Part shown: positions 33,061 to 59,772 of the stretch, one piece after another
How the letters are laid out: every line of letters begins with the position of its first letter
Position numbering within the stretch: the stretch's first letter is position 1
Source of the DNA: Nymphaea colorata
Lineage: Eukaryota; Streptophyta; Magnoliopsida; Nymphaeales; Nymphaeaceae
Direction of reading: 5' to 3'
DNA: 64,000 nucleotides
Assembly (NCBI RefSeq): GCF_008831285.2
Contig: NC_045142.1
Coordinates: 5,027,501 to 5,091,500, forward strand
Translations under genes and position numbers: made by a program
Notes under the pieces: generated by a model
Database searches by the model: none
Told to the model about the DNA's origin: nothing
Seen by the model: only the letters and a program-made list of their open reading frames with translations

Positions 33061-34690
33061 TCCTCTGTTCGACCTGAGACGACATGGGAGAGCCCTTAGC
33101 CGTCAGGTTCCCTTTGGTGCGCAATAATAACTCCAGGTCGGATCTGGACCGTCATCCAGACCCACCCAAAATTTCATACGCCAAAGTATCAGGCATTATA
33201 GCTAGTGTTCTTCCAGTCTACCAAATACTGGCAGATTATCAAGGATCACGTTTCCCCTTTCAATTTACAAAATATGTACATCTCATATTCTAAATGAAAC
33301 TCGTAAACTTATGATTAAGCTAATAGGCTGAATCGAACCAAAATTGGGATCATTTACAGATGGAATTGATTACTGTATATGTTTATAATTTTAAAATAAG
33401 AATACTTAAGAAAAATGAATGTGTAATTTGATAATAATAATAATAGCTTAAGGTTGCCAAACGATAACTTGATAATAGTAATAGTATTCTAATAATACAA
33501 GATTAATAAAAAAATAGAAACATTATGAACCTTGCTGTTTAGCCTTTTCATTGTCCACTGAAAGGCACATAGAAAAAAAAAATCTCTCCCAATTGCTATT
33601 AGAAAAATTTTTAAACGTCGTTCCCCTTATGTTCTCTCTCTCTCTTTCTCTTTCTATATATATATATATATATCGAGTGAGAGCAAAGCTTGGAAGGGGT
33701 AGTTTGTGGGGGCTCATTATCAGATAATAAGAGGAGTAGAAATGCACCTTAAAAAAAGTTACAAATGACCTCATAGACAAGGTAATTTAACGAAAAATCA
33801 AACATATGAGTTGATTTTATTGAAATTAGATAATCAAAAGCAACTGAACAGGACAGGCTGGCAAATGGCAGCACTATCACCAACAAAATCAGTTGAGCCG
33901 ATGACCAGAGCATCCAGCCAGCAAAGGTAGGATGCCAAATAGTAGTTGTGGTTGGAAAAGGAACAGGGAGGGGGCCAAAGAGGCTATTTGTGAATGGCTG
34001 GAAGCTCGCCCTGGTTGCCCAGGGTTGACCCCTTGGGCTGCCTGGGGTAGATTCCTTGCTAGCCGAAGTTGGTTCCCTAATTTTGTGGACTAAGTCCTGC
34101 ATCTTGGCTACCTTAGCCCTATTAGTCATCGGGCCATCTAGCCTGATTCCAAGCATCAATTTCATGTCCCAAGCCCAAGCCTCGCTGGCAATACTGGTCC
34201 CAGAAAAAAAGAAAAAGAAAAAAAAAAAGTTTATACTCTGAGAATAAGCCAGATATTTTCAAGTGGTTTTCCAAGCGATAGAGGTTCTGTGTTCGAAACG
34301 AAGTTGTCTTCAATGGTTGGAGGGCGAAATCAGAGCCGGGTAAGGAAAAGTAGGCAACAGTTGAGCAAGTAGAACAAAAAGCAAGATATAGTAAAAGTTG
34401 TGCTCCATCCATCTGAACATCTGCCTATATACGTTGAAGAGAGAAGAAAGAATTGTCTAGTCTGTGAAGAGTGTATTAAAGTGATGATGTTACACAAAAC
34501 ATTCTAAAAGAGGTAGTTCAAACCTCTTAAGCAACCGAGCCGATAGCTCCTGTTATTGGGTTGGAAGGGTTTAAAAGGGAAAAAAAAAGGCATGTCTATT
34601 TATAAACAATTTTGAACTGAAGCCATCTTCATAGCATGCTATCTTATGAATTGGACTCCTACTATTTGACTTAAAGGTAAATCTTTTACT
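33061..34690. other. Intergenic DNA, possible Ty3-type pol tail
   Basis: Mostly AT-rich with an AT/GA microsatellite at 33630-33675. On the minus strand around 34060-34165 the frame reads IRLDGPMTNRAKVAKMQDLV, which recalls the DGPMTRARAKR tail of plant retroelement polyproteins. The frame then drifts into nonsense. Low confidence. Confidence 0.35.
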
Positions 34691-34699
34691 TCACACTTT

Positions 34700-36500
34700 A
34701 ATAGAAAGTAAAGTTGGCATTAATCATCTGAAAATATTTGGGACCAAGGTTTATCGTCTAATGGACAAATCTGAGAAAGCAAAACTTAGTTTTTTTGTTG
34801 GCTATTCAACAAGAGGTTATAGGTGCTATCGTGTTGATGAAAAAACCTTTATATTTCAAAAGATGTGAAGGTTTTAGAGTCAGCTCCATTTTCTGTAGGA
34901 TCATACATGGAATACAATGATTAGCCACGGGGGGTGGGCTGGTAGTTCTTCCCGACATAAGCATTTTCAAATGATTTCGTAGCTATTACTGAAATCACAA
35001 CAGTGTGCACAAGTTGAAACCAAGGATCTCCCTCAAATAGAAAACAATAAAACAAAAATATGCATGGAAGTGAAAGTGTTGTTGAACTGTGGAGATCCAA
35101 AAGCACAAGTCAAGCATAAAGTGTACTGGAGATTATGCCCCTTATAAAGTCCTGGTAAACAAGTAAGACTTGATCATCTCTCCAGACCTTATATTTCTTT
35201 TTTCACCTTGCTAGGGATACATATGGAATTTGTAGCATATGAGGAGACTAAGGAAAACCATATTTGAGCCAAGGTCATAAAAAAGAACTTGATGCACTTC
35301 ACGTAATTAAACATGGGAAATAACTAAGCTTCTTAAAGGAAAGCGGGTTGTTGCATGTCAACAAATGTGCAAAAAAAAAAAAATACAATAAATGATGAGA
35401 CCATTGAGATACATAAAAACAGGCTCATTGCTAAACGATGCACCGACCCAAGGTTTGGAGTCACAACAATGTTTTTTTCTAGTGGCCAAAATAATTATTT
35501 CATGAATATTGCTTTCAATTGCTTGTAACTTTGATTGGCTCATATTTTAGTTGGATGTCAATATGATTTGTAGGAAGAAGTCGACATGAAGTTACTCTCA
35601 AGACATCCAGTCAAGAATCCTCCTTCCTAATATGTAAACTTAGAAAAATGTATATAGGTGGATTAAATTAGTCTTCTCAAACATAGCATCTCAAGCAAGG
35701 CTAGGTTTTCAAACAACACAATTTTATTCAAAGCAAAATAGATAAATTATTATTTATTAGTAGAGATAATATCGAACAGTTTCACTTCTATGTCGGTGAC
35801 ATCATTATTATAGAAAAAAATTGTAATATCAAGATTACAAATGCTAAAGGGCTTCTCCATGAGACTTTTAACGTAAAAGACTTGGGGAAGCTTCAATATT
35901 TCTTTTGCATTAAAATTGTTCATTGCAAGAAATGCATGTTCATATCACAAAGAAAATGTGTTCTAAAATTGTTGAATGAAATTTGCAAATTGGGGTGTCG
36001 AGCAGCTGATGCACCTGTCAGTCCCAATTTCAAAGTTACCATAGGAAACAAACTAGTTCTGTTGATGTCTCAAGATACCAATAATTGGAAATTATGTGTC
36101 TTCCTATCACAAGGCCAACCCATGTTTAATTCTTGCAAAGAACATTGAAGAAGGTAGAAAAAATTTTCAGATATCCAAAGAAAGCCCATTGACAACGATT
36201 GTGGCATTAGAGAAATGAACATGTAAATATTGAAGGATATTCAGATATTGCTTGGAAAAGCTTGGGTTGAAAACCAATAACTGATTATTGTATATGTGGG
36301 AAACGATTTGGTGACCACAGAGAAATAAAAGATTATCTGCAAATCCAATGTAAGAGTAGAGTATCGAGCAATGGCAGCAACGACTAGTGAGATCACATGG
36401 ATTCAAAAAAATAATGATAGAAATGCAAAATTTAGTACTCCCACTCCTTTGCATTGGCAGCACTTTACAAAGCAGCAAATTCAGTCTTTCATAACATAAT
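34700..36500 (+). pseudogene. Highly decayed Ty1/copia integrase-RT-RNase H
   Basis: Plus-strand relics occur in family order. An integrase C-terminal part (KAKLSFFVGYSTRGYRCYRV, about 34775-34845) is followed by an RT active-site region reading FYVGDIIIIE (about 35790; YVDD changed to YVGD) and KDLGKLQYFFCIKI. The RNase H end gives EYRAMAATTSEITWIQ (about 36360-36410). Stops and indels lie between all blocks. It is on the opposite strand to the two larger copia elements. No LTR was recognised. Confidence 0.75.
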
Positions 36501-37373: not shown

Positions 37374-38997
37374 TTAGTAACCAGTCTCCATCTCCATCGC
37401 CTCTTTCAAGTCCTTCACAATATTATGCATGTTTGGTCGCTCAATCGACCTTCGTACAGTACATGCTAATGCTATATCTGCAACCTTCCACATAGAATTC
37501 ATTTTGTGCTGCCCTTTAATCCTTGGATCAATAATGCTCTCTATGTCGCCCCTGACAATCTTTGATTTTGCCCATTCAACAATATGAAAATGCTCCTCAA
37601 GACTGCCAAATATGGCTTCCCGACCACATATAAGCTCAAAAAGAACCACACCAAAGCTATAAATATCACTCATTTTTGTGAGAATGCTTGTTTCTGAGTA
37701 CCTGCAAAACGAAAATATGTAATGACCTTTTGTTCAAAGTTAATTTAGAGGCAGTCATCATGGCTTGCTTTCATTGTAGATCAACAAGCTGTTATCATTG
37801 AAAGTCTACCAAAATTTTGGAAGGATTTAGTATTATTGTTGGTCAAAAGAGCTCTTCTTAGCTATGTTGTCATGTTGAAGATATTCTAAATAGGTGTTAT
37901 TTGTCTTCTTTCATGGTTTTCTTGAATTTAATATGATCTATTTTCCTACTTCTAGTTATTTTCTTTTTAATATTGAAGTGGACAATTGTATAGTTTTATA
38001 AAAACAAAGTAGGTACAGTATATGAAAGTAGAATATATGCATCTTGAGTATTTGAAAATAAGGAACTGGACATGCAGAAGGGTGCCAATAGTGCTAAAAT
38101 GCAGCCTAGGAAGGCAGTAGTAAACAATTTCTTGACTATGATTCATAAGCATGATTTGGTTACCAATTGAGCATGTGGCAACATACCAAAACATGCATAG
38201 CCAACAACTGCACTTTCTTAGTTTCTAATACAAAATACATATACATTACTTTAAGAATATTTTGAATAGTTTTCTTGTTTTAGCTTCTTTGTTCTTCCAA
38301 TCATATCATATTTATCTAGTTGGCTTGGTCCTTGGTCTTGAGCCAAGTCTAATAGAGCCAACATTTCACATCTGCTCTAGCTATAGGAGGGACTACTAGG
38401 TGAACTAGTCATCACTTACTGTACAACACAAAAATATTCAAATGCTTATCAAAGAAGGTCAAACAACTGTAAAAACAAAAAAGTCATACTCAGGATCAAT
38501 GTATCCAGGTGTGCCGACAACCATTGTTGATATTTGAGTCTTCTCATCAACTCTGGAAATTCCGAAGTCTGCTAATTTGGCTTCTAGCCGTTCATTCAGA
38601 AGGATATTTGTACTTTTTATGTCTCTATGGATTATGGGAGGTTGGCAACCTGAGTGTAAATAACTCAAACCTACATGCAAACTCAATTTTTATCATCAAT
38701 CACAAATGACTGTTAAAGATGATAAAGGTGTAGGGAATAAATGATACTGGTTTGCATACCTGTCACAACATCCAAAGCTATTTGCAACCGCCTCTTCCAC
38801 GTTAAAGGTTCTGTTGTGATTCTTTTGCCTGCATGTTATTAAAACAATCTATTAGTAGTTAATCTTCTGATTTATTATAATCATACTCAAGATGACGTGA
38901 AGCATCATTTGCCCTTGTATGAACTATGTAAACAATATTGTCTTAAAAGGTTTGAGGGCTTAAAAAAAAAGGTGCCTTCAGTTCTAGAAGCTGTGTG

Positions 38998-39039
<42 letters not shown>

Positions 39040-42000
39040 TGTTTTCTTACCAAGTATTTTCTTATGAACAATTCTTCTCCCAACAGATCTACACACACTG
39101 TAGTTGCCTCTTTAAGCAATTCATGCTGATAGCGAAAATGTCTAAAAGACATAATAGCAAAAGCTCCCATCAATGCTAAACAAATGGCTTCCACATTTCT
39201 GCTATGCCTAGAAGTGTGAAACATTCTGAATGTCGGTGTTCGAAACTACCTAAATTCTTAAATGATCATCCCTATGTAATGAGTAGGAATTCAAATCACG
39301 ATCTCATATAACCAGATCCTTTAAGACTTTTTAAAGTGATCATCTAGTAGGTTATGCAAGTCCTTAACATATTCTATGCAACACATTTTATGACTTGATT
39401 GGCATGTTGTTTTTGTAATTTATTTAGTATAATTCTAAATTCATGACACACTATAAAAAAGAAAATTTAACTAGATTTATACCTGATAAGATATCTCTCA
39501 AGCTTCCATTCTGCATGTGCTCATAAAGAACAATCATATTATTTCCTTCATCACAAAATCCAACAAATGATACAAGGTTTTTGTGATGGACTGTCATTAA
39601 TAAATTGACCTGAAATGTTGGACATGAAAACTTGAGTTCATTCATGAAATTATGGAAATAAAACAAGCACAAACAATTAAACAACAAACATAATCCATTC
39701 TAACCTCTGCGACAAATTGTTTGGATCCTTGTTGTTCCAAATCTTTCAATACCTTGACTGCGACATCATTGCCATTATTTAGACGACCATAATAGACAGA
39801 ACCAGATCCTCCATCACCAATAAGGGTTTGAAAGTTTCTTGTGATCTTGACAATATCTTCATATGTGAATATATGCTTTGACCCCAGCTGAATGGAACCA
39901 GCCTGTTGCTTCACATGATTCTCTACAATTTCACATGACAATTCCTTAGCTAATCATGCCTGTAGTTTGTGTCTTCATGTGGCCATGTCTCAAAAATCTA
40001 TTTCTTGATCCATTACTTTAAAAAAATTTTGTTCCATTCAATTTCATGAAGTACAATGCATTCAATTGATTTTGAATGCATATAAATTTGGGAGAAAATA
40101 CATTTCCTTTCATCATCATTGTCATTTCAATTGTGCAAGAAATTTTTTATTTCCAAACAAGTTAAAGCTGTATCCATGTCGGTACTGTAATGTGGACAGT
40201 TGTAAAACAACTTGAGTGCCCCTCCCAACCCAAGGAGACACACCTGGCACACCTTATGTAAGGAGTTGATGTCCATGGGAATTAAATGACTGCAATTGCT
40301 TGAGAGCAATCGCCTACTCCCATTATTCCAACCTGTTTTGGGTTTAAGTGTGCGACAGTTTCTTAAATACTTATTTCGTTTCAATTTGAAAGGAGTATGC
40401 CAACCACCTCTTTTCTTCCTTCATAACAACAATTATAGAAAACATCAGTTTTAGCTAATTGATGTTGATTGTGTTGCAAATATGATGAGGTGAGTTACTG
40501 AAGGGGAGGATCACTATGCAACCTTGAAAAAGTTGCCACCAATACAATGCTAGGCAATAAACTAGTGAAGAATCAAACACAATAACAATGATCATATATG
40601 GAAAGAAGGATTACGTGAAAAAGTTAGGGTTTAACTTCCAAGTCAATGTCTTACTCTTCTCAGAAAACAACTATTTATGAACAAAAGAATAAAGAAACAA
40701 GCTGAAATTTCAAATAGGGTCTCATGTCTGGATATTCAATGCATCCACTTATAGTTCATCACCTAAATGAGGTTCAAGATCTGCAAGTGGAATGGCCCAT
40801 GCCATGACAAAAAAACAGAGACCAAGAAAATGTACATTTGCTTTATATTAAGAAGCAATAGAGCATGCTTAATAGATCAGTTCTACATGGCCTTTTTTGT
40901 TGGAATAAGGAACAAGCTTATTTCCGTGCTGTCTAACTAGTTGAAGACACTGACATTATGAAGTATGAAAGAAATGTTACATCTAGGCAAATAAAAATAG
41001 CAAAACATGGTACCGAAAGATACAAAAAGTACATCCTTAGGAAAGACTTTGAGGAGCAAAAAGTATTTGATTAGAGCAAGATGCTCTCCCTTACCTTCCA
41101 TAGGTTTCCCAAGGAAGAAATGGAGCTTCTCTCCTGAGGTAGGAAGCTATGGCAATTTGCTATTGGCAATCAACTTAATTTGAGCATATTGAGGCACATT
41201 TGGAAATAAAATGACTTACCTACATTATTCTCGAATACAACATTCGGTGATGCTCTAGGACGTTGGCTTCGAAGGCATGCATAGATGAAGCAACCAACTA
41301 GCAATAGAAATAAGATAATCGAGCCAAGTGATACTCCAATAATGATCGGTTTCAAATTTCTTTCGCCATCTGTCGCGGGTGGACTTGGATTCTCTTCAGT
41401 GATGTTGTTTCCCTTTATACTAAAAAGAATAGACAATTAAAGAGATTCAAAATGCTATATATGGATGAAATGCTACGGCTCAATTATAGATATCATACTT
41501 TTAGTTTGGTATACTATGGATGGGATACCATCAACCAATTTCAGTTATCATATCTCTTGTTTGCCTATCGATGGCCTAGAGAAGCTATCTAGGTTCCCTT
41601 TATCACCCTCTTTCTACCATACACAAAAATATGGTCACAACTGCATTTCCTTTTGCAAAAAAAAAAAAATTCTACTTACTTTAGTATGAGGTTCTTGTTG
41701 CCTGCTAGTGACGTGGGTAGAGGTCCAGTGAAATTATTGTCTGCCAAGTTCCTGCAACAATCAATGGAAATCTTGTCATACTAATAGCCAAAGGAGATTA
41801 AACAGGGCAGCTTGTAGATCGAAACTGAATGATTGCCCTCAGGTGGGGGAACAGAAGATTCAACACACTGAAATTTCCATATAACTAATTGACAAAACTG
41901 TGGTTACCTTTCTCTGGAAAGCAAACAACTAAGCCCATATTTATGGGTTCCTTCCTCCATGAAAGAGCAATAGAAACATTCCACAAGAAGTCTTGTGATT

Positions 42001-45000
42001 AGTTCATTAAGAACCCATAGAGAGGGTTATGCAACAAGCTCAACAAACCAAAGAACACCCATTTGATGCTAATACTGGATTCATTTGGGTAGCTTTAGTC
42101 AAGTGGTGTTTAAGCTATCACGGTTCATCTGATCAGTTGCAAAGATGGCACACCACACAGATGCCTAAACTATGTATGACAAGCCATTTCACATAATAAG
42201 CTGAGGTTGTGAGCTTCGTGTCACAAGTTTTGAGTCATATTGTAAGTTTAAAAGGGTGGGGTCAAGATTATAGAAACAAGAAGCTAACAGACAGTGACAA
42301 AGAGTAACAACTAGTACTCCACCATGGACACTGTTTGGGGTCCTTACTTTGCTCATTTTTTCTGTTTGGCAATGTGTCGATTACTTTTTATCATGACTGA
42401 ATTATTGGATGTCCACATACTCATATTCCCATAAGAATGAAGAAAAAGTTTAAACTGTGGCTGAATCCAACTTTTAAATGTACAATTCAAATATGGTCTG
42501 CTGACTTGTAAATACACATACAACCAAATAACAACCACATTATGATATTCTAAAAATTTGTTTTAAAATGTATTTATATTCGATAAAGAATTTTTACTTA
42601 CAACTAAATCCAAATTCAATTGGATATATTTATTTAAAATTATATCTAAGTCCAACCTCGAGTGAATGCCATTTCTTAAATCCAAATGCAATTCAATATC
42701 TTAATCTGATGTCAAAATACGGTTCATATCTGACGTTTCTGAAGCAATTGATAGGATATCCAATCTGAAATATCTGATCCATTGATATCTCTATCTAGTG
42801 GGGCTTCAATATAATTAAAAGAACAATCACAAGACATTTTGAGGGCAAACAACCAAGACTGGAGCTAGGCTTCTATACTAAAAACTTTTTGAACTTGAAC
42901 TAATGAAAAAAAAAACTTTTAGCTGAACTAGCTTTGGCAATTTATTGAAGTTTTTCTTTTGGTATAAAAACTTACAGCTGTTTCAACCAAGGAAATCTCC
43001 CCAAGAACTCTGGGATCTGCCCATTCAAGCTGTTGTTACTTAGATCACTGCAAAATCAGAGTTCTCATTCAGCGAAACTCCATATAAAACTAAGCAAACA
43101 AAGAGCCAAGAATATTTATGCTTTACTCACATCATCTCAAGTGCAGTCAGGCTACTGAAGTCTGGAAGGGTGCTGTTCAAGCCAGATCCATTAAGGTGCC
43201 TAAACCAGCAAAGAAAACAGGAAAGATACTCAAAAGTGCCTTAAGATGAGAATATTAATTTTTTATGCGAGTTGGAAGAAAAAGGATTTGTATCCTTGAA
43301 TCCAAAGTATTGATCATCAATATAATCATCCGAGTTTCAACTGGGAGGAAGATATATGTATTAATTAAGTAAAGGTACTTTGATCCGATGATCATGTGCT
43401 ACTCACAGTTCAGTAATGCGTGGTGGATCGTCAGTATTGCAGTTGAGCCAATCCCATGTGGATCCATCGGGAAGGCATGGATCACCTGCCCAAGATTGGA
43501 GTTGTTGGTATTGACCTTGTAACACCTCCAATGCTTTCACTGCAAACAATCGCCACAAGAAACAGGCAACTTTTTTCAAATTTCTTGCAGTTTAAAGAAT
43601 TGAGAACAAAAGGGCTGTCATCCCTATATTCACCAAGTTTTCAGAAACATAAAGATCTGGGATGTCCCTATATGCAATGGTTTTGTAACTAAAAGTAACA
43701 TTTTACCTCTTTCACTTGCTTTTGGATGGGGAATGAGTGAAGAAATAAACAATGAACTTATTACCTGTCCTTTTCTGAGGTGACAGTGCAGTAAAGATGC
43801 CAGTCAGTACTCATATAGGGGCCAAAATTTATCGCTGTCCTTTTAACTCAAATAAAAATATTAGCTAAAATTAGAAAAAAAAAGTCCAAAAGTAAAAATA
43901 TATATCCATCAACTTAACCAATGGACAAAATTAGAGAGAATGAAATCTCGCCTGTTCGTGCAAAATTAAGAAGGTTGACACGCCTTCTTTATAGTTGCCA
44001 GCAAAAGTAAAAGTTAGTGATGAAGCCCTCCTTTTGCTATATGCTTCTAAATGGCATTCTCAAGCCAAAAATAGCTCCCTGCCAACTTTTACTCAAACAT
44101 TCAAATTCGACGACTATCTCTTCTCATTTAAAGGGAAGCCGATTAAAGGGGCAGGCAGGGGTCATGGCATTCAAGAGAATTTTTTTAGAAAAAAAAAATA
44201 TCTGTTACAATTTTTAGAAATTTTTATTTGTCCCTTTAAAAGTTTTAAAAATTATAGTTTCATCCTTGCAACGATATTGAGAAATATGCTTCGTGTCCCT
44301 CAAAAAAAAAAAAAAAGATATTATATCCTTCCCTCTGCCCTATAGAGAAAATTGATTGTATGTATTTTGACAGCCAAAGACTAAGCTTCCATGTCGTACA
44401 AGGAGTGTAACCGGGTTTCGAACTGGAGGCTGCTCCTAAGCCCTCCAGTTTGCCCTATGTCCCATAAAGGTGTGAACCGTGATAAATATATTTTCAACCA
44501 AGACAGTCTATTCCAAAAGAACATGATGGAGCGAACGAAAACTTCGGCACAACCAAGACATTCCATTCATCCACATGGACCGCTTTAATATAAAGGCCGA
44601 CTTCGATGTTAAGGCCATGAGAGGGACGGAAGAAAGAAAAGGTGCCATAGGTAAATTACTACATCAACTATGACTTTGAAGTATGACCTCGCACATGGCA
44701 GCTTTGTGAGCCGAGAATTAAGTGGATCAAACAACTCATAAATCAGGTTATGTAATATTTTATCTACATATTAAATATGTAACCCATATAGGCTATGTAC
44801 TTTAGTTATGAGCTATCCAATTAATATGATTGCTTTCACTATTTTCATATGAGTGAGAAGAGAAAGAGAGAGAGAGAGAGACCATCCTGTTCGTTGGTTC
44901 CATTAGCGAGTCCTCGCTGGACCTTGAAAACTTCCATTGCGTTGAGGATTGGTGGAAGGGAGGCATTAGCTGTGTTGACCAAGGAAACGACTGATCCAGC

Positions 45001-46699
45001 AGTCAGTCTCCGACCACGGTGATTGTAGTTACTCCAATATGACTGATAAGGTGGGATTATAGAACCGTAGTCGTTAAGCTTTTCGCCATCAACAAGGAAA
45101 TCGAAAGACCTGCTCTTATTTTGGTAAGCTGCCTCTAACACTTCCGAGAAATAGAAATTGTAGTAATATGTGTCATCTTCCAAATCCATCCACGACGATG
45201 GGAGTGCCAGTGTCGTCGCATTGCTCGACGCTGGTGTTATCGCATGGACTAATGCCAGTCCCGGAATATCCGTGAAGTTTTTTATGAAGCTGATGTTATC
45301 TCTCCCCACAGTTACTACGCCGTCGATCTCACTACTTGGATGCCAATAACGATCATAAGGGTCATCCGGGTACCTGCCAATTGATCACAACTGAAAGTTA
45401 AACGGTCTTTACCATGTCAATTACATGAATTGGTTGTGACTTCGGAAACATACTGAAAATTATTTTTTTGGTAAGACGAAATATGCAAAAGCAATTGAAA
45501 AAAGCAAAGTTAACACGAATCATGATTCCACTGCTCTCTAATTTATTTCAAAGCCGTAAATGTTATGAAATAAAAGTTAAAAAGTTGCATGAAATAAAAG
45601 TTAAAAAGTTGCGTTTCTTTTAACTTGTTAAATCGGGCTGACATACACCAACTTGGTCGAATAGGTTATACCTCAAACCCGAGCTCCTCCCAGTTTATCT
45701 TTCACTCTTACCTTACGAATTTCGCCGCTCCCAAGGCTGTCCTGCTTATCCGCAGAAGAACATCTTCTTTGTCGTTCGTCTCGTACATGCTCGTTTCAAG
45801 TTCCCTGATTTCAAGACTGGAGATGAAGGTTATCTGGTCGGGCGACGTCTGAACGACACAGACGCTGATCTTCTCTCTTTTCGGTGCATATATTACTTCA
45901 AAATATTGGCCCTCACTGGATGAAGTGTTCACTTTCATCCAAGAGTTCCCATCAAATTGCAGATCGAAGGACGGTGGCCATGACTTCTTGTCGTAGTTGC
46001 CATAGAAGAAAGTAGCCCGAACCATGTGTTTCTTGCCCGTGGCTACCCCCGATATCACATAGCAGCTCTTCTTTTGGGAGGGAAAGTAGCGGAGGCTGCT
46101 GAGCTCTTTCCCGTATACGTCAAGATTCTGGACTTGGGCAGCTTTCCCTGTCTTAATGTAACCGTCGTCGACGACCCAATTGATGCCCAAACGGTCGGTG
46201 TGGTTGTCCATTCCTCCACAGTCAATGCTCAAGAACACTGGCAGGAAACAAATTAATTAGGAAACTCCCCGGTTATAATGCATAAAGAGCATCATTTACG
46301 ATCGGAATGGGTCTAAAATTACTTGATATAAAACAAATTCTGGCGCCCCAGTATGATAGCTATCAATCTCCAAAAACTTGTCCCTTTGGAAAATTGTTAG
46401 TTTCAAATATGTAGGAAAAGTTAACCAATCAGATACTTGTGCTTGATGTTATTCCTGGAGGAAAAACTAAGACCACGTATTCGGGCTATACATGTAGGAA
46501 TGCCCATTTCTTTTATTAACAATAAACAGAACAAGCACAAGGTTAGATCAAGCGAGCACTTACGTGGTTCAGCAAATCCGCAGAAAACTTGTATTGCAAT
46601 GCATAACCCAGGAAGGACGAGCGAACTTGCCCTCTTGAAACGGTGCTCGATCGGCGCAATTTCCCATAATAAGGAGACTACAGACGCTGAGCCACCCAT
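37374..46699 (-). CDS. Malectin-like LRR receptor kinase, complete, 13 exons, 882 aa
   Basis: Exons: 46699-46564, 46237-45712, 45373-44883, 43539-43407, 43199-43131, 43047-42976, 41751-41680, 41419-41220, 39949-39705, 39609-39483, 38828-38760, 38670-38490, 37701-37374. All introns are GT/AG, all phases agree, and the 2,649 nt end in TAA. Domains: signal peptide/leader 1-45; two malectin lobes 46-384; linker with [16 protein letters not shown] to ~428; three LRRs, one per exon, 429-499; membrane span 524-548; kinase ~606-882. The kinase keeps the glycine loop GDGGSG (611-616), K632, HRD (728-730), N735, DFG (748-750) and [10 protein letters not shown]. It should be an active RD Ser/Thr kinase, typical of LRR-RLK subfamily I, whose members act in cell-wall or immune sensing. 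The ligand is unknown. It diverges from the malectin loci at 47-60 kb. Confidence 0.94.
39005..39042. repeat. (GT)n microsatellite in intron 10
   Basis: About 19 GT units with one interruption lie between exons 10 and 11 of the complete receptor kinase. The Thr-His frames at 38905-39224 (minus) are translations of it. Confidence 0.95.
44850..44882. repeat. (GA)n tract at the exon 3 donor
   Basis: A GA-rich run (CT-rich in the sense strand) starts directly after the donor of exon 3 in the complete receptor kinase. The left paralogue has the same arrangement, with the tract expanded further downstream. Confidence 0.8.
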
Positions 46700-47095: not shown

Positions 47096-47394
47096 AGAGG
47101 ACCATTAGTGATGATTTACAGTACAGGAACGGTTCATGGTAGTTAATATTTGTAATGCACTTAGTGAATATTAATAATTTTTAACTATCTAACAACTATG
47201 CGACATCCCGCACATTTAAATTTTCCTACGTGTCTATTACAAGTTCATAATGTAGAAAATTCAAGATAGTGGTAGGGACCACCCATATTAATGGGAGCGA
47301 TCATACAGCTCAGAAATGCAACTATGCTTTGCATTACTTGAAGTATTTTTCACTTGATACTTGGCACAGTCGGGCATATTAATCGCTTAAAAGA

Positions 47395-47690
47395 GTAGAG
47401 TACTGCCGAGGAGAAGACCTTGACTTGGTTGTGCTCCGTCGTCCACGGCGGTTGACGAGTTCTTTGCAAGACAATGCTCTCGCCATCAAGGTAGAGTGGA
47501 GACAATGCAAGGGACACTGACGCGTTTGTCCGGGAGAGGAGAAATAACGGGGACCTTGACCTGGTTGTGCCCACGGTGGTGGAAGTCTCCGACTGCGAGG
47601 CTTGAGGTCTTCATGACCTGATCCGGTGCAACTACTCTCCTTTGGACTTAAGCGCATGGGTCCGCCCAAAGCTTCCTAGACCTTGCCATT
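47395..47690. repeat. Dispersed repeat, copy 2 (single unit)
   Basis: Same family as 6390-6670 and 54290-54830: CCTTGACTTGGTTGTGCTCC, GTTGACGAGTTC, GACACTGACGCGTTTGTCCG and GAAGTCTCCGACTGCGAGGC in this order. It is one unit of the array found twice in the other duplicate, and part of the segmental duplication. Confidence 0.88.
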
Positions 47691-48917
47691 GGAATCAATT
47701 ATACTCTTAGTATTCTTTATTTGAATTTTTCTTGAAAAGTAAAATTTGGGGCACTTTCGTTTGTGTGACCGCGTGACGACATTGACGCCCATTCCGTGCA
47801 CTGGCCTGTTAAATTTTGTTCACTGTTATGGCCCCCTAACAAGGAAGCATGTGTTGTGAGTTAAAAATAAACCCCAAAATGCATTCAAGAAACTCAGGCA
47901 TGAAGAAATCTAACATATTCAGCACACCTGGATGTTACAGTCTCTTTTTTTTTCATAAATTAATCGTATATGTTCATCTTCTTCTAGGTAACCTGAATTT
48001 GGAAAATTAATTTCATTTGGTCAGTAACAGAAAAGAATGTTTTTCTAATCTAAACAAATAAACTAAATGGGAGTTAGATGCTGAGATTTGCATGGAAGTG
48101 AGAAAAACTATATGATGGACTAAAAGAACGTTAATTCTCGATGTATAGACAAGACTTTACGGGCTTGAAAGTTTTGACGGACGATTGATCTTTGTTCTTC
48201 ATATAGTTCTGTTTGTACATCTAGATTATGGATACATCTTCTTTTTATGGTTTGGCTTGTGAGAAAAATGATATATATATACCCGGCCATGCTTTTGTTG
48301 ATTGGGAACTGTTTGTAACTATTTCATAAATCTACCTCAAAAATTAGTGCAAATTAATAACACGCTTTTTCATGAATATATCACAATCTTTAGACCATTT
48401 TTATAGAATTGTTACATACTGTTTGCCAATTAAACCATTTTGTCCTCTTTCAATTATTATATAATTATGCCCGATCTTTGCGGTCATGTTTACTTCTCTT
48501 TCTTCAGGGGCAGGCATCAAGCATAGCATGTGGGCAACTGATCATTCCACTGACTCGAAAGAGAATTACTGGGTAGGGGACTATCAATTCATTCAATCAG
48601 GATCCTGCGGTTTACGAGCCCAGATGCTCCAATCCTGTCCACCATCCGTTACTTCTCTGATGGAAACACGGATTGCTACACAATCCCTGTCTTTACTCGG
48701 GTATAAAATCGTAGTCATTGCCATCTTCCAGTATGGTAAGTACGATCACCTGGCACTGTCACCTTCCTTTCTGCTCCTAAAGTGGGCAGACGTTGAGACT
48801 TCAATGGATCTGGATCTGATAGGGTATGGGATGGCCTACTGGGCTGTGGCTAACACGGTCAGTGTGTGCCTTGCCCCGGACAGCACTGCACTCGTTCGCT
48901 TCATTTCTGCCATATAA

Positions 48918-49200
48918 ACCAGGGATGCTCCCCATAATTCGATAACGGGCCCGATGCCTGAAACATGAGTTCGGACCCAGTTCGGGCCCTGCAAAATAAA
49001 AATACATTTTTTAAATATAAATTAAATTTTTTGTATAAAAAATATATTTTTAATAATAAAATATATATTATTAATAATAAAAAAAATTAAAAGTTATTAG
49101 GCTAGCCTAAACCGATTTTTTCAAGCTCCCGATTAAGCTGGATACCGGGTATTCATTGGGTGCCTGGCCCGATTTCTAGGACTATTTAAAGGTGTCATCC
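48918..49200. repeat. GC-ended AT-rich insertion
   Basis: CGGGCCCGATGCC and CAGTTCGGGCCCTG at the left and GTGCCTGGCCCGATTT at the right flank about 120 bp of AT-rich DNA. The piece has no counterpart at the same place in the intact duplicate and looks like a small nonautonomous insertion. Exact ends are not resolved. Confidence 0.45.
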
Positions 49201-49489
49201 AAGCGCACCCTAAACTTGCAAAAATCCCAAGATGATGGTACTAAGATTTTTTGACATTGATTCTTTCTTTAACAGCCAAAGTCCATTTGCACTAACATTC
49301 GTGGGTCAAGACAAAACCTCATGGCCTTGGGAGCCCACGTTTGCTTATGTTTACACGGTAGTTTGTACTGTTTGTGCCTTTGAACAAATTGATCACCTCA
49401 GTGTGCCTACTCTCTCTATTTTTTTGAAACTAGAACTGGTCTCTCACTGTATTCCTTGCTGATGTAAATGTTTGCTTTGTTGCATCTAT

Positions 49490-49790
49490 TTGAGTAGTGC
49501 AACTGGTCCAGTCAGGTGGCATGTATAACTCTCTCTCCAATGGATAGTGCAACTAGTCTGACCAGGTGGCATGTAGAGCTGTCTCTCCCTCTCTCTACCA
49601 AATAATCTCTCTGCCTACCGAATAATGAGTAGCACAACTGGTTGAGTCAGGTGGCGTGTATAAGTATTGTCCCCTATTCAGTTCCCAGGGATTCGACCTT
49701 TTGTATGAGGATGACGACTCAACCTTGGGGACCCGATTTTTAGTATAGTTGGCCTTCAATTTCTGCCTCCAAGAATGCCACGCTCGCATC
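49490..49790 (+). mobile_element. tRNA-derived SINE-like sequence with repeated 5' part
   Basis: TAGCACAACTGG (49630-49641) fits a polymerase III A box, and GGATTCGACC (49689-49698) is close to a B box. Two further copies of the A-box part, each followed by AGGTGGC(A/G)TGTA, precede it at about 49495 and 49545. The third copy is the only one followed by a B box. Tail and target duplication are not resolved. Confidence 0.5.
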
Positions 49791-50929
49791 CAGAATTAAG
49801 TCAGATCCCAATAGCCATTGTACGGGGAAGACATGGACTAGGGGCGGAGATACGTGCCAGAAGAAATTGTCACAATAGAACAATATTAATATTTCAGAAT
49901 AATTTTTGTCATTTACATGTTGGTATCTTTTAAAAACTAATTTTAAACAAACGCTCCTGAATTTTCTTGTTCGGACTTATGCTACATGCAGGGATAATAA
50001 TGGTAATTCTGGTTCTGGTACGACGCAGATTTGGGATGATGCTCATGCAGGGACTTAATGCACATAACATGGTGCTCTTATCTCTGCAACAACGCAGATT
50101 TCGGAGAGTGAAACAATCGGCTCTTTTTAACCGACATCTCGTAACTACTCCAGAGCCTTGGCCACTTAGCTTTGTACATTGGCCACCACCTTATGAACTC
50201 TGCCTTTGATTTCCACGTCCCACTCTCCTTACCTTTTTTTTTTTTTTTTTTCCTTTTTGGCATTGACAATTTGTTTTTCTTTTTTGTTGAACTTTTTGTA
50301 CCTTTGATTTTCCACTTCGTCTTCACACACTCTCTCTCTTTCTTTGCCTCTACATCACCTTCATTTGCTCTACCCTTTCAAACTCACCTTCTACTATGTC
50401 ATCGAGGTGCAGGTACGGATGGTGGTACGAGAAAGAGAAAATAGGTACGGGTACGCCGTTTTGCAAATCATGATAGGGGTACGGGTTTCTTTAATGCGAT
50501 AATATTAAATTTTTAATTAAAAAAAATTATAAATTTCGAAATGATTATGGAGGAACCCACAAAACTAATAAAGTTCCTTATCATAGGAGAGTCGTCATGA
50601 TGTGGGAAAAAATGTAGTCTGGAAATATACAGTATATGTAGCTGGAAAAAAGAGGGAAAATGCAGGAAATACAGCATATGGAAGTGTCGCAGCCCGCCTG
50701 GATTCAGAAGATTCACAGAAAAAAGAGGGAAATGCAGGAATCGAGAACAGGAAAGGGGAAGGAAGGAGGTGATTACAAAGGGGAAATAGCCGCCTGCGTT
50801 TTTGACTCGACCAATGAAGAGGACCACCTCTCCTTCTCTCAACGGTCTACACCCAGCGTGAAGGAGAACCGGAGAAGAAGACGAGCTTCGGGCATAATGT
50901 TAGGTTTTATTTTTTGGTATTAAAACATG

Positions 50930-52094: not shown

Positions 52095-52231
52095 TAAATG
52101 ATTCATGGTACTTTTTCTAAAGATTTATCATGCTTTTAGCAAAATATTATTGATTATCTAACAACCATGCGGGGTCCCCCAACATTTAAACTTTCTTGTC
52201 TATCTGTTACAAATTAATAATGTATCATTGT

Positions 52232-52970
52232 TGTTTCCTAACGAAAATTCAAGATTGCTGAAAATTCAACTGTACACTGGTGGGAACCACATTGTATTGC
52301 CGAAGAAACTTCAACCACGAGCATGTATTTCTATATTTAATTGGAAAAGGGTACTGCCAATGTTTCATCAATAATTGCTCTCAGTTCGTTCCTCGTAATT
52401 GAAACAACACCATCTTGATAGGATTGTTTTGATCTGATCTGAAAACTCATGGAGAAGAAAACCTTGAAGACAACCGTTCAAGGAAATATTGGAGATCAAT
52501 TCGTCGAACGCTGTAGTTGCCTACGAATGAAGAACGTCAAGGAAATATTGGAATAGTTTTTCCTTAACTTTTACTTGCATTACAAGTCTCTTTCATCTAT
52601 TGTTTCCTTACGAAAATTCAAGATTGCTGAAAATTCAACTCTATCTGGTGGGAACCACATTGTATTGCCGGATGAAACTTCAACCACGACCATGTATTTT
52701 TATATTTAATTGGAAAAGGGTACTGCCAATGTTTCATCAATAATTGCTCTCAGTTCGTTCCTCGTGATTGAAACAACACGATCTGGATCTGATTGATTTG
52801 ATCTGATCTGAAAACTCATGGAGAAGTAAACCTTGAAGGCTAACGTTCAAGGAAATATTGGAGATCAATTCGTCGAAAGCTGTAGTTGCCTACGAATGAA
52901 GAACGTCAAGGAAATATTGGAATAGTTTTTCCTTAACTTTTACTTGCATTACCAGCCTCTTTCATCTATT
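52232..52970. repeat. Tandem duplication, ~370 bp x2
   Basis: Copies at 52232-52600 and 52601-52970 share TGTTTCCT(A/T)ACGAAAATTC at the start and CTCTTTCATCTATT at the end. They differ at only a dozen or so positions. The left flank of copy 1 also matches 47175-47285, so the segmental duplication with the pseudogene block includes this area. Noncoding. Confidence 0.92.
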
Positions 52971-54247: not shown

Positions 54248-54289
54248 AAGTGTTTTTCACTTGATACTTGGCATCATTAATCGCTTAAA

Positions 54290-54830
54290 AGAGTAGAGTA
54301 CTGATGCGGAAGAGACCTTGACTTGATTGTGTTCCATCTTTCACGGCGGTTGACGAGTTCACTGCAGGACAATGCTGTCGCCTTTCAGGTAGAGTGGAGA
54401 CAATGTAAGGGACACTGACGCGTTTGTCCGGGAGAGGAGAAACATTAATGACTGATGAAAGTACTCCTGAGGTAGAGGTGGCCTTGACCTGGTTGTTCTC
54501 TGTCGCCCAGGGTGGTGGGAGTCTCCGACTGCGAGGTTTGCGGTGTTCATTACCTGATCCATACAATTAGTCTCTCCTTCGGTTGACGAGTTCACTGCAA
54601 GACAATGCTGTCGCCGTCAAGGGAGAGTGGAGACAATGTAAGGGACACTGACGCGTTTGTCCGGGAGGGGAGAAACATTAATCACTGATAAAAATACACT
54701 TGAGGCGGAGGTGACCTTCACCTGGTTGTGCTCACGGTGGTGGAAGTCTCCGACTGCGAGGCTTGCGGTGTTCATTACCTGATCCATACGACTGCTCTCC
54801 TTCAGTCTTAAGCGCATGGGCCCCCTCAAA
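54290..54830. repeat. Dispersed repeat, copies 3 and 4 in tandem
   Basis: Two head-to-tail units of about 260 bp each contain GTTGACGAGTTCACTGCA, GACACTGACGCGTTTGTCCG, ACCTGGTTGT and GTCTCCGACTGCGAGG. The corresponding block in the pseudogene copy has one unit. The open frames here are repeat translations with no recognised domain. Confidence 0.9.
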
Positions 54831-55105
54831 GCTACGTAGACCTTGCCATTGGAATCAATTATATTCCTAGTATTCTTTATCTGAAACTTACTTGAAATTT
54901 AAAATTTGGAGCACTTCTGCTTTGAGTGACAATGTTACAACATTGATGCCCACCCCGTACACTGGCCTGTTAAATTTTGTCATATGTTATGGCCCGCTAA
55001 CAAGGGAGCATGTGTTATGAGTTAAGATTAAAGCTCAAAATCCATTCAAGAAACTCAGGCATGAAAAAATCTAACATATTTAGCACACCTGGATGTTACA
55101 GTCTG

Positions 55106-56739
55106 ATAAGCGTGTTTCAAATCATGCGGTAGATTTATGAAATATTGTCACAAGTGTTCACGAGTAAGCCACATTTTTGAGTGCCTCTTCCCATATTATT
55201 AACAAAAAAAAAAAAACAAATACAAAATAATATTACAAAAAACCTCCAATCTGCTTAAATGGCAAGGGCGAGAGGGTAAAAAAGAACTCTTTTCCAAAAA
55301 AAAAGTTCGATAAATTAACTTGCCACTTAAAACTTAAAATGACACGCTTTTCAAAAAAATGAAAAAACGTGTTTTTAACGCATTTTAAAAGAGTTTTTTT
55401 ACGTTATTTCACTTTTCCATTTCTTTTTAATGTCAATTAGTTTTTTTTTTCTTCATTTGTTGTAAATCTACTTTATTTTTTTATGTTTGAGAGAGACTCC
55501 CATGCAGAAAACGTGTTTACAAGAGCATTTAAAGATAAGAGTTGTAAATTAAACCGGAAACATAGAGTTACAGTTCCTAAACTATACACTTTTTGCAATT
55601 GCAAAATAAAAGGAACTGCCCATCCCCTGTTTTATGGACAAACAAAAAAAAATCTTCAAAGGATTTTACGCAGCAAGTAGGCGTTGCAATCATTTAGATA
55701 TTACCATCTTGCACGGCAACAAGATTGAAGATATGTGCACAAAAATCTTCAGTTGTCCTCCTGTTACCATAATCTGCAACTCTAATTACTGCCCTTAAAA
55801 TAACCTTCTTTCTTTACAGCCTGCACCACGGTCGACTGAATCATGCCATCAGCCGATCCAAAAGAGGGCGAGGCTGTGACTTTATAAAATAAACACCTAT
55901 ATTAATGAGCTTCACCAATAAAAAAAATGGCTTTTATTGATGTGAAACAGACAATAATACATATAACAAAATTGTCAATCAAACCTTTACTGACGTTTCC
56001 ACCAATCAGAAAAGATTGTGAGTCCAGACGACGTCACTGGTACCTTCAGTAACGAAATATGATCAAGTCAATACCTCTCCATATTGCTTACATTTTTAAG
56101 AAATAAGAATATAACAAATGAAGTGTTAAGACGAGCTGATGCTTACCTTGTATGTCTACGCCTTTACTGATGCTTGACAAACATTACAATTCTCAAAGAA
56201 TCACTCCCGCAGGTAGATTTACTTTTACTGACATTTTTTTCCATGTAACTGTAGATTTTATATATATATATATATATATAAAATATGTACAAACGTTATT
56301 TGTATATACCGATTCACCAAAAGCTAGCTGCAGAGAATGAGGGAGTACAATGAAGAGGCGTTGGAAGGTCCTGATCTCAACCTCAGGGTGTTAACAATAA
56401 TGTTAAAGGTTTTGAATAAGTGAAAATACGAGCCAATTATTGATTGATGAAGCGCAACATATAAAGGGCCGATTTGAGATTAACAAGATCGAACCTCCGA
56501 TCCCTGGTTTTGGGAAAAAAAAACAAATGTATTTTGCAGTTAAATAAAAATGGTGGGCTGCATATGAAATTTCATTCCACTTGCTATCTGATCTCAAAAG
56601 TACAAGATGCATTACTTGTGATGATTTTTCCATTTGTTCGACTAGACCTAGTCGTCTTCTTAAGTGTTTGATGCTTCTGACTTGGTCTTAATTTATTTAT
56701 CGAGGAGAAATATTAGAAATTATGGCTGCCGTTCCTCTT
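55106..56739. other. Upstream region of the malectin gene, absent from its duplicate
   Basis: This is mostly AT-rich noncoding DNA. T-rich stretches with GAAAAAACGTGTTTTT-like words lie at about 55290-55440 and recur at 60340-60470. It contains a (TA)n tract at about 56258-56281. It ends at the core promoter of the intact malectin gene, and the pseudogene copy lacks all of it. Confidence 0.5.
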
Positions 56740-56745
56740 TATAAG
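56740..56745 (+). promoter_or_regulatory. TATA box candidate of the kinase-less malectin gene
   Basis: TATAAG in the context CTCTTTATAAGCGACC lies 73 bp before the last base preceding the start codon, which allows a leader of about 45 nt. This is a plausible plant core promoter position. Confidence 0.5.
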
Positions 56746-56817
56746 CGACCCCAGTATACTGCTTAAGGCCCATTTCTCGTGAGCAAACTCAGTCTCTATT
56801 CCACTCTCTTGGTAGCG

Positions 56818-59772
56818 ATGGAGAAATCATTTCTCATTCTCTTCCTGCTTATGCTCACTCTAATTAATTTCCTGCATGTGACTCTAGGTAAGTCTGATCT
56901 TCCACACCTGAATCATGTTAGAAGGCTGATTCTCTAGCGACTTCGATCTCTCTTTTTTCATAAATTAATCGTATATGTTCATCTTCTTCTCAATGGCTGT
57001 AATATATCTTTATTATATCCTTTTCAAAGTGTGGACGTATGCATCCTTTCATCTACGTCCTTCTAGGTGACCTGAAATTGGAAGATTAATTTCATTTGGT
57101 CAGTAACAGAAAAGAATGTTTTCCTATTCTAAGCCATGCGTTATTAACAAATAAAAATGGGAGTTAGATGTTGAGATTTGCATGCAAGTGCGAATTTTTT
57201 TTTTGATGGACTAAAAGATCATTAATTCTCGATGTATAGATGAGATTTTATGGGCATGAAAAGTTTGACGGACGATCGATCTTTATTCTTAATATACTTC
57301 TGGTTGTACATCCATATTATTAAAATACATTTTTCTTTTATATTTTTCCACATATGGATACATCTCCTTTTTATGGTTGGGCTATTGAGAGAAATGCTTC
57401 ATATATATATATATATATATATATACTTGTTACCCAACCATTCTTTTATTGATCGTTTTGAACCCATTTGAAAGTTTGTCAATTGGAATGTAAATATTTC
57501 ATAAATCTACCTCAAAAGTGGGTGCACATTCCTAAAACAACTTTTTAAGGTGTTCCATAAATTTATCTAAATCTTTGGACCATTTTTATAAAATTGTTAC
57601 AAAATGTTCTCTTTGCCAAATGAACCATTTGGTCCTCTTTCAATTATTATATAATTCTGCCCGATCTTTTGTAATCATTTCTATTTCTCTTTCTTCAGGG
57701 GCACATGCAGACATCAACATAGCATGTGGGACAACTGATCCTTTCGCTGATTCGTATGGGAATTACTGGATGGGGGACGATCAGTTCATCCAATCAGGAT
57801 CGACTGCAACGGTTCAGAATACGAGCCAATATTCTCAACTCCTGTCCACCGTCCGTTTCTTCGATGATCCAAACACGAATTGCTACACAATCCCTATTCT
57901 GACTCAGACGAACAAAATTGACGTCGTTGCCTTCTTCCTGTATGGTAATTACGACGACAAGGCACAGCCACCTTCCTTTAAGCTCCAAATCGATGACAGT
58001 GAGTGGGCAGACGTTGAGACTTCAATGGATGATCTGGCAGCGTATGGGATGACCTATTGGCCTGAGGGGAACAACGTCAGTGTATGCCTTGCTCGGAACG
58101 AAACTGCAGGCGTGCCCTTCATTTCTGCCATACAAATGAGCACAAAGGCTCCTTCCCCTGATCCGAGCACGGAGGCTCCTTCCCCTGATCAGAACACGTA
58201 TGCGACACCAAAACTCCCTCTTTCTTTCTCTTTTTAAGTGATGGGTAGCACAAGTAGTCTTTGGTTGGAAGATAAAAGAGCGCTCAAAGAGCGCTCTGTA
58301 AGCACCTTAAGCACTATTTTATAAGCACTATTTTATAGGTAAAACAGGGTGTCATAAAGAGGGTGTCATCCAAGTAGACATGGACTAGGGGCAGGAGCTA
58401 TGTCACAATGGTACGGGTAGGGGTGGGTACGGCAACTATTACATATAAATAATTCAAAAAAATAATTATTATATATAATTAAACCACAAGTTGTAACAAA
58501 ATTACCAATAAAAAGAGGTTTATAATGAATAAATTATCAATGTTTCATCGTTAACAATGAGATTTCTTATGTTAAAGAATAAAAAAAAACAACAAAAAAT
58601 AAAAGATAAGTAATATTTTTGAGTTTTTTAAGTTATAATGTAGTTTGGATCTGGATCCGATCTGAATCCAAATCCAAACGTACCCTACCGTACCACCGTA
58701 CCGGTGCTGGTACGCCACTAAAAGTGGCGTACCACTGTCACTTAGGGCGGGAGCGATTGTCCACAGACCAAAAAATAAAAAATAAAAATATTAATACTTC
58801 AGTATAAATTTTCTCATTGTCTTTTAAAAACTAATACTAATTTTAAACTAACGCTGCCGAATTTTCTGGGTCCACCGTGTCACCGTACCGCTTACTTTCT
58901 TGTTCGGACTTATGCTACATGCAGGGATACCAGTCCGCCAATAATAGTGTTTAACAACATAATATTGGCTCCTGCAAAGGCCAGCCCAAATGCGAGCGAA
59001 AATCCGAGCCCAAATGCGAGCCCAAAGGATAAGTTCGAAGAATTCATTATTCTGGTCACTCTCCTCCCTAGCGGGACCTTCATCACCCTTGTTGTCTCTG
59101 TCATTGCTTGGATGAAGAAAAGAAAGAAGAACAAGAAGGCTCATATAAACAGCAATTCGGATGTCGCAGGTAACTCCATCTTTCTCAAATATATCGCAAA
59201 TATTAATTGGGGGAGGGCTTGGTGCCAGGAAATTTATTATCGTTGGAATTTGAAGATAAAAATTTCTTAAAATTTACTCGTCAAAGCCATTCAAATGCAT
59301 GTGTTAAATAGTGAACCCCCTCTGAGGGGCTAACCATTTAAAATGTCGAGACACAAGCCAACCTTGATTGTTAAGGGATTAAAAATGTAAATGACTGAAT
59401 TTAAAATGTAAACCAAGAGGTTCTAATTAGTCGTATGCAAGCTTAGTCAACTTGACTCAACTCGACCCATATATTATGTGGCTCGAGCTCAACTCGTTCT
59501 AATTATTTATATATTGATGCTTCTTTAAATTTTAAAATGTATTACTAGCGACGCTTAGCAAAAAAAAAAAAAAAAAAAACTTTGCTCTTGCTCCAAGCAC
59601 TCCTCTAGAAAAGAAGTCTTTCGTTTAGACACTCGTATAACTCCAGGCAGTTCACCATGTACACGTTCTTTATCTTGACATGCTTATTTGCTTCATGCCT
59701 GTAATTCAATGTCTAGGTGCTGCAAACCAGCAGAAGTCTGAGGTAGAGGATAAAAGCAAAGATGAAGTTTAG
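56818..59772 (+). CDS. Malectin-like receptor-like protein without kinase, 4 exons, 289 aa
   Basis: Exons 56818-56887, 57699-58197, 58925-59169 and 59717-59772 have GT/AG borders and matching phases (1, 2, 1), total 870 nt, ending in TAG. Signal peptide about 1-27 (MEKSFLILFLLMLTLINFLH). One malectin lobe about 28-170 aligns with exon 2 of the receptor kinases: INIACG, YWMGDDQFIQSG, FFLYGNYDDKAQPPSFKL, VSVCLARNET, FISAIQ. A stalk at 171-226 carries two APSPD units and PNAS/NPSP words, likely hydroxyproline-glycosylated. Membrane span about 230-253, then a basic stop (MKKRKKNKK) and a 36-residue tail ending KSKDEV. No second lobe, LRR or kinase follows. It should be a type I plasma-membrane or cell-surface protein. 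Role unknown; decoy or co-receptor is possible. Exons 3 and 4 rest on splice signals only. Confidence 0.82.
57400..57425. repeat. (AT)n microsatellite in intron 1
   Basis: About 13 AT units lie between the signal-peptide exon and the malectin exon. Confidence 0.9.
58277..58297. repeat. Small hairpin AGAGCGCT/AGCGCTCT
   Basis: An 8-bp perfect stem with a 5-base loop just downstream of exon 2, in intron 2 of the kinase-less malectin gene. Because it is intronic it may have no function. Confidence 0.6.
58398..58745. repeat. GTACGG-bordered repeat with diverged palindrome
   Basis: It starts with GGTACGGGTAGGGGTGGGTACGG and ends with CCGTACCGGTGCTGGTACG; the centre is AT-rich and includes the palindrome relative of 50930-50966. 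It resembles a nonautonomous element and lies in intron 2 of the kinase-less malectin gene. Confidence 0.5.

Follow-up and report, generated by a model that had tools for sequence, protein, structure and literature searches.

A four-exon gene for a predicted single-lobe malectin membrane protein in a receptor kinase cluster of Nymphaea colorata

Can half of a malectin-like ectodomain, held in the membrane and lacking a kinase, be the product of a gene in its own right, and if so, how did it arise and what could it do? The question is raised by a gene for a 289-amino-acid (aa) protein at positions 56818-59772, plus strand, of a 64,000-nt stretch of Nymphaea colorata DNA (NC_045142.1; C5:5027501-5091500 in the coordinates of our genome search; hereafter the window). 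We find that the gene belongs to a small but multi-copy, fast-changing family of single-lobe genes in a cluster of malectin receptor kinase genes. We favour, at about even confidence, the reading that it encodes a receptor-like protein of type I membrane topology, which carries one malectin lobe, the N-terminal one, and would act as a modulator of receptor complexes.

Gene structure and predicted protein

The four exons (70, 499, 245 and 56 nt) add up to 870 nt in frame, with GT donors and AG acceptors at every intron border and introns in phases 1, 2 and 1. The parts of the gene are as follows (L numbers denote related loci, described below):

56740..56745, plus strand: TATA-like box TATAAG, 78 nt 5' of the start codon (a sequence motif, with no evidence of function)
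56818..56887, plus strand: exon 1, start codon and signal peptide, followed by intron 1 (phase 1); a 70-nt exon 1 is also found in L022 and L031
57699..58197, plus strand: exon 2, malectin lobe and beginning of the stalk, followed by intron 2 (phase 2); from splice borders and Pfam
57719..58138, plus strand: single malectin lobe, residues 31-170 (PF12819 positions 1-145 of 331; fold comparison is compatible with it, no more)
58138..58198, plus strand: 27-nt tandem repeat, 2.3 copies, encoding the stalk motif APSPD (repeat analysis)
58925..59169, plus strand: exon 3, stalk, membrane span and basic stop-transfer, followed by intron 3 (phase 1); counterpart exons in L021, L022 and L023
59043..59111, plus strand: predicted membrane span FIILVTLLPSGTFITLVVSVIAW, followed by MKKRKKNKK (hydropathy)
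59717..59772, plus strand: exon 4, encoding the charged C-terminal tail up to the stop codon; L021, L029 and L031 have a similar exon

The only Pfam match of the protein at E values up to 0.1 is to PF12819 (Malectin_like) at residues 31-170, with a score of 96.8 bits, above the curated cut-off of 24.5, and an E value of 1.9e-27. The matched part of the profile is the N-terminal lobe alone and not the full two-lobe domain of 331 positions, whereas the adjoining receptor matches 1-331. Hydropathy analysis revealed two hydrophobic stretches, the signal peptide and a 19-residue maximum within residues 228-253, and places the predicted span at approximately residues 230-252. The protein contains five N-glycosylation sequons; the stalk is rich in Pro, Ser, Ala and Asn and is built in part from 27-nt and 12-nt tandem repeats, and the lysine-rich tail has an isoelectric point of 9.7. 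The original prediction, made from the DNA sequence alone, had proposed four exons agreeing in phase and a product consisting of signal peptide, one malectin lobe, Pro/Ser stalk, one span and lysine-rich tail; the exon model is borne out by the splice borders and the reading frame, and the domain order by Pfam and hydropathy.

The same prediction held that leucine-rich repeats (LRRs) and a kinase are lacking, and this was confirmed. Lobe 2, LRRs and kinase, which if present further right would contradict it, were sought to the right of exon 2 up to position 64000 (5.8 kb) and were not found, the sole match being a 34-aa lobe-2 match at E 0.085. An annotation error, by which exon 2 would be a part of a larger receptor, was ruled out by a search of the window and of these 5.8 kb for lobe 2, LRRs and kinase, and by the same structure in relatives. 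The gene model is more than a product of chance, since paralogues at other places in the genome have the same exon borders and phases.

A malectin-type ectodomain behind a signal peptide (by hydropathy), one predicted span and the absence of a kinase place the protein among the malectin receptor-like proteins (MRLP or Malectin-RLP). It does not have the two lobes, LRRs and kinase of the malectin-like domain (MLD)-LRR receptor kinases, i.e. group I of the LRR receptor-like kinases (LRR-RLK I); its gene shares with that group phases 1, 2 and 1 at the signal-peptide, lobe-1 and membrane exons, as seen in the window receptor. With four exons and no kinase domain it falls outside the CrRLK1L group, which has a kinase and of which the single-exon gene is named as a feature in the part of the source cited here (PMC5485988; the other publications are likewise cited for the passages concerned).

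Relationship to the neighbouring receptor kinase

The receptor that adjoins the gene, and the two of its exons that are relevant here, are:

37374..46699, minus strand: MLD-LRR receptor kinase, 13 exons, 882 aa, with PF12819 positions 1-331, LRRs and kinase (exon model, Pfam)
45712..46237, minus strand: receptor exon 2, coding for lobe 1, entered in phase 1 and left in phase 2; counterpart of exon 2 of the 289-aa gene (intron phases)
41220..41419, minus strand: receptor exon 8, coding for the membrane span, entered in phase 2 and left in phase 1; likely counterpart of exon 3 of the 289-aa gene (phases, alignment)

The receptor has phase 1 after the signal-peptide exon, phase 2 after the lobe-1 exon, phase 2 before and phase 1 after the membrane exon. 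The phases of the 289-aa gene are thus those of receptor introns 1, 2 (or 7) and 8, an agreement that, taken alone, has a chance of 1/27. Receptor exons 3-7, which code for lobe 2 and the LRRs, comprise 837 nt in total and are flanked on both sides by phase 2, therefore their removal preserves the frame. In addition, the alignment of the membrane exons of the two genes outscored 1976 of 2000 segment-wise shuffles in which the composition of stalk, span and tail was kept. The simplest and, judged from this anatomy, most likely reading is that the 289-aa gene corresponds to a receptor gene that lacks exons 3-7 and stops short of the kinase.

This receptor gene was not the present neighbour in the recent past. 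A recent truncation of the adjacent receptor was ruled out by the lobe tree (see below) and by the identity of only 37% between the two lobes: with this identity and a position outside all 17 receptor-type lobes, the 289-aa gene is not a recent half-copy.

Additional pieces of receptors from this cluster, some of them only partial, lie elsewhere on the minus strand of the window (697-1206, 3138-3733, 17965-18549 and 22846-23493); their identities to the receptor at 37374-46699 are 52-66% for the lobe-1 pieces and 87% for one lobe 2. Retroelement remnants are present at 34650-34868 and 35705-36148, with an SH3_retrovirus match at E 3.3e-8 and an RVT_2 match just under the cut-off.

The single-lobe family and its rate of change

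The lobe was used as query in the 407.8-Mb assembly (783 contigs) and gave at least 105 matches. After merging of split matches, a region of about 0.7 Mb (C5:4.59-5.31 Mb) was found to hold 29 receptor-type matches and 10 single-lobe loci, the latter including the 289-aa gene and a decayed copy in the window (copy A). All 29 receptor-type matches are on the minus strand and all 10 single-lobe loci on the plus strand, which looks as if the duplicating unit were a divergent pair of one receptor and one single-lobe gene. Other groups of malectin lobes lie at C6:1.33-1.49 Mb, C6:6.57-7.15 Mb and C1:27.86-28.01 Mb.

In a tree of 25 lobes the 8 single-lobe sequences were split from the 17 receptor-type sequences with a branch support of 100/99; the tree program warned of long branches for L029, and for L009 and L020 relative to the single-lobe group. 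Lobe 2 was detected in seven of the 17 receptor-type rows (the window receptor, L004, L008, L009, L011, L015 and L020), the other 10 being followed for at most 1.5 kb; L009 and L020, at C6:1.3 Mb, thus both carry lobe 2. The lobe of the 289-aa protein is at most 46% identical to the receptor-type lobes of the genome search. As for the earlier claim that the gene stands beside a full receptor kinase, the receptor itself is real, but the pairing is looser than suggested: ten such loci are set amid 29 receptor-type matches, and the gene has a lobe that is distant from that of its neighbour and outside the receptor-type group.

Fourteen genomic stretches (ten plus four) were taken for closer comparison. 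In L022, exon 1 (70 nt), lobe exon and membrane exon are present, the phases being 1, 2 and 1; L023 has open lobe and membrane exons; L021 has kept membrane and tail exons, its lobe exon being frameshifted; in L029, whose lobe contains stops, exon 1 as well as parts of exon 3 and exon 4 can still be recognised. An eleventh locus, L031 (C5:4663944-4666709; L031:945-3710), lies outside the lobe matches and is an open four-exon version of 145 aa, also with phases 1, 2 and 1, whose product has a similar signal peptide, membrane span and tail and has lost most of the lobe. L024, L025, L026 and L027 are broken or partial, so that together with copy A, L021 and L029 seven of the ten single-lobe loci are in this state; a further locus has a frame open to the end of exon 3. 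In a scan at E up to 0.05, L021, L022 and L023 yielded no lobe 2, LRR or kinase on the plus strand, and the single exception was a match to lobe 2 on the minus strand of L023 (22 aa, E 0.021). All receptor pieces of L024, L025 and L027 lie on the minus strand as well; in L026 the receptor membrane exon has one plus-strand match, a weak one (E 0.017). A genome search with the membrane exon of L022 yielded five matches, namely L022, L023, L021, the 289-aa gene (E 0.55) and one on C9 (E 0.45); nothing in it pointed to members outside the C5 cluster, the search being an insensitive one that recovered the 289-aa gene itself only at E 0.55.

Turnover of the family can be followed within the window, where a decayed duplicate, copy A, occupies 47341-49996:

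47341..47943, plus strand: upstream flank of copy A, matching 54248-55104 (window self-comparison)
47948..48918, plus strand: remnant of intron 1, then a lobe exon disrupted by a stop and by frameshifting deletions; promoter and exon 1 absent (alignment; Pfam E 4.7e-4, 20 bits, below cut-off)
49879..49996, plus strand: end of intron 2 and acceptor of exon 3, similarity being lost thereafter (alignment)

Positions 55105-56952 of the intact copy, the region of promoter and exon 1, have no counterpart in the alignment, and the stop of copy A sits at the end of the lobe. Among 49 amino acid differences with a comparable receptor residue, 17 were changed in copy A, 6 in the 289-aa gene, and 26 were undecided (p 0.035); the count takes in residues beside alignment gaps, thus the share of copy A may be inflated. 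In the same area, the upstream flank at 54248-55104, next to the intact gene, occurs in doubled form compared with that of copy A, its internal copies being 86% identical over 237 columns, and at 52231-52970 a 369-nt unit occurs twice, head-to-tail, with approximately 94-95% identity.

The ratio of nonsynonymous to synonymous divergence (dN/dS) was compared between single-lobe and receptor lobes. Of 136 receptor-lobe pairs (which are not independent), 106 had dS between 0.03 and 1; their median ratio was 0.316 and the maximum 0.71, and receptor lobes are constrained. The lobes of the single-lobe genes change faster. For exon 2 the ratios were 1.31 (289-aa gene and L022), 1.51 (289-aa gene and L023) and 2.07 (L022 and L023), and for the lobe alone they were 1.29, 1.37 and 2.33 among open copies, those of the 289-aa gene being 1.37 with L002 (Fisher p 0.24) and 1.29 with L003 (p 0.31). 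Exon 3 alone gave 0.73 and 0.53 for the 289-aa gene with L022 and L023, respectively, and 2.79 for L022 with L023; exons 2 and 3 together gave 2.29 for the latter pair (Z -2.86, Fisher p 0.018). Pairs with the broken L012, the lobe of the L021 gene, had ratios of 0.91, 0.62 and 0.42, the last of them (L003 with L012, Fisher p 0.003) appearing as a sign of past constraint. Between the 289-aa gene and copy A the ratio was 1.17-1.44, with p 0.15 for codon positions 1 and 2 against position 3 and p 0.087 for exon 2 against intron 1.

Intron 2 of L022 and L023 differs by 10.7% (about 0.115 corrected), compared with dN of 0.133 and dS of 0.058; since intron divergence is near dN and about twice dS, the high ratio may stem from low dS. 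Diversifying selection on the lobe is possible, and relaxed constraint may account for much of the fast change. The 289-aa gene, L022 and L023 have frames open throughout exons 2 and 3, which is not often expected under free drift. When only stops were considered in a neutral simulation, exons 2 and 3 were open in 0.3% of runs at K 0.41, the synonymous distance between the 289-aa gene and L022, and exon 2 alone in 1.3% at K 0.41 and 3.9% at K 0.25. With indels, in one lineage at 0.091 substitutions per site, the lobe was open in 1.5-6.3% and the whole coding sequence in 0-0.6%. As the simulations start from copies picked for being open, they somewhat overstate the case.

Possible function and comparison with known kinase-less malectin proteins

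If the product is a modulator of receptor complexes, its history could have been the following. A malectin-LRR receptor kinase of LRR-RLK group I would have lost the exons of lobe 2 and the LRRs, with a product stopping before the kinase, and the resulting gene would have spread by duplication within the receptor cluster, many of the copies dying. The protein would stand on a glycosylated stalk at the cell surface; having no kinase, it would act by association in the same membrane with full-length receptors or with a shared adaptor kinase. It could thereby tune receptor abundance, assembly or ligand response, the lobe probably being the fast-changing recognition part.

Several observations weigh against this reading. 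Only the 289-aa gene has the complete four exons with lobe, the last exon of L022 being uncertain, and in L023 a duplication breakpoint just past exon 1 has left that exon missing. dN/dS is 1.3-2.3 among open single-lobe copies (0.4-1.4 in pairs with broken copies), and change is near the neutral rate when measured against intron divergence, so that a slow loss of function is possible. Where the receptor lobes have a residue in common, change is confined to copy A in 9 columns and to the 289-aa gene in 3 (p 0.15), and the identity to the lobe of the neighbouring receptor is low.

That seven of ten loci are broken or partial, that L023 lacks exon 1 and that ratios are at least 1 among open copies could also be explained by assuming that the family consists of non-functional remnants, receptor fragments open by chance on their way to loss. 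We consider this unlikely, because the four exons of the 289-aa gene are all open and encode signal peptide, span and tail, three copies are open across exons 2 and 3, the simulated fractions of open frames are low both with and without indels, and the L003-L012 ratio is well below 1. An improbable alternative of similar standing is a decoy, in which the membrane-held lobe would bind the ligand of a full receptor of the cluster and block its signalling, as the original prediction had suggested next to a co-receptor role. The absence of a kinase and the location in the same cluster as full receptors are in line with it, and a decoy role has been proposed, without demonstration, for the kinase-less SYMRKL1 (PMC10630511). 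But a ligand common to the 289-aa lobe and the neighbouring receptor is not supported by the sequences, as the lobe is distant from all receptor-type lobes and outside their tree group, and half of the two-lobe domain is missing; moreover, THE1 without kinase is a gain-of-function form, and OsCBM1 is described as a positive regulator (PMC8651890).

Two further possibilities are very unlikely. The exon-2 frame continues for 13 codons beyond the donor to a stop at 58237, and if intron 2 were retained or the RNA ended early, a secreted soluble lobe without a span would be made; against this, L021, L022 and L023 have the corresponding donor, acceptor and membrane exon. Hardly more credible is a lectin-like factor of glycoprotein quality control in the endoplasmic reticulum (ER), comparable to animal malectin or rice OsMLD1, because the ER malectin domain PF11721 was unmatched (E up to 0.1), a housekeeping factor would hardly be expected to change fast or to form a tandem cluster, and the cytosolic tail ends in KDEV with no KKxx or KxKxx retrieval signal (by eye). 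What favours the receptor-complex modulator over a pure ligand sink is that the published kinase-less malectin proteins act through other proteins. A tentative extension, more doubtful than the modulator reading itself, is that the plus-strand half-malectin proteins, interleaved with the minus-strand malectin-LRR receptor kinases, co-evolve with them, each acting as a fast-changing co-receptor or interfering subunit that would adjust the specificity of the surrounding receptors. If true, receptors and kinase-less modulators would occur in the C5 cluster as matched sets. With a single lobe retained on what seem to be the receptor's exons for signal peptide, membrane span and tail, the family amounts to a domain deletion made by nature, an experiment that opens two questions: can lobe 1 alone recognise a ligand or partner, and do receptor clusters make their own modulators by in-frame exon loss?

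Kinase-less malectin membrane proteins are a class already described, of which the 289-aa gene is a variant, thus "undescribed component", the term of the original prediction, was too strong. For this class roles in immunity, drought response and fruit ripening have been reported, and its members in the publications cited act as positive as well as negative regulators. We found no plant malectin described as one lobe plus span in the open-access literature, most subscription journals being outside this scope, and do not claim that none has been published; in the passages cited, the described proteins either carry a tandem domain or their lobe number is left unresolved. Malectin-RLPs are widespread in land plants (n=294, versus 324 LRR-RLKs, in an embryophyte comparison) and share with the 289-aa protein a malectin ectodomain and span without kinase, being described there without a division into one and two lobes (PMC10834447). 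OsCBM1 (OsMRLP15), one of 17 rice malectin receptor-like proteins, is found in the ER and plasma membrane, has OsRbohA and OsRacGEF1 as partners and raises reactive oxygen species. It resembles the 289-aa protein in having a malectin-like domain only and no kinase, and is said to have one such domain, the likeness being one of description (PMC8651890). Tomato SlRLK-like, also a kinase-less malectin-like membrane protein, interacts with LeEIX2, dampens its response and alters its abundance and localisation according to secondary accounts; it differs in belonging to the CrRLK1L/THE branch, a family with two malectin-like domains, and is not an LRR-RLK I derivative (PMC12406564, PMC9144812). NtRLP4, which associates with the adaptor kinase SOBIR1 (PMC13143284), and SYMRKL1, proposed as decoy or hetero-oligomer partner (PMC10630511), are kinase-less malectin proteins at the cell surface that, unlike the 289-aa protein, retain LRRs, SYMRKL1 having in addition a tandem malectin-like domain and a predicted GPI (glycosylphosphatidylinositol) anchor.

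Strawberry groups named MRLK have members mostly with only one malectin domain (PMC5042409), and truncated LRR-RLKs were present in every genome surveyed (PMC7318236). The full receptors of LRR-RLK I, such as the window receptor and the Arabidopsis OAK cluster, are similar to the 289-aa gene in lobe 1, signal peptide, membrane exon and phases, and differ in possessing lobe 2, LRRs and kinase; like the C5 cluster, they form tandem clusters with truncated members (PMC3136440). Unusual features of the present case are that only one lobe is kept, that the anatomy is one of in-frame exon loss, that several copies form a family, and that these lie on the other strand than the receptors. In OAK it is the second malectin-like domain that is variable, whereas in the 289-aa gene lobe 1 is the one remaining (PMC3136440).

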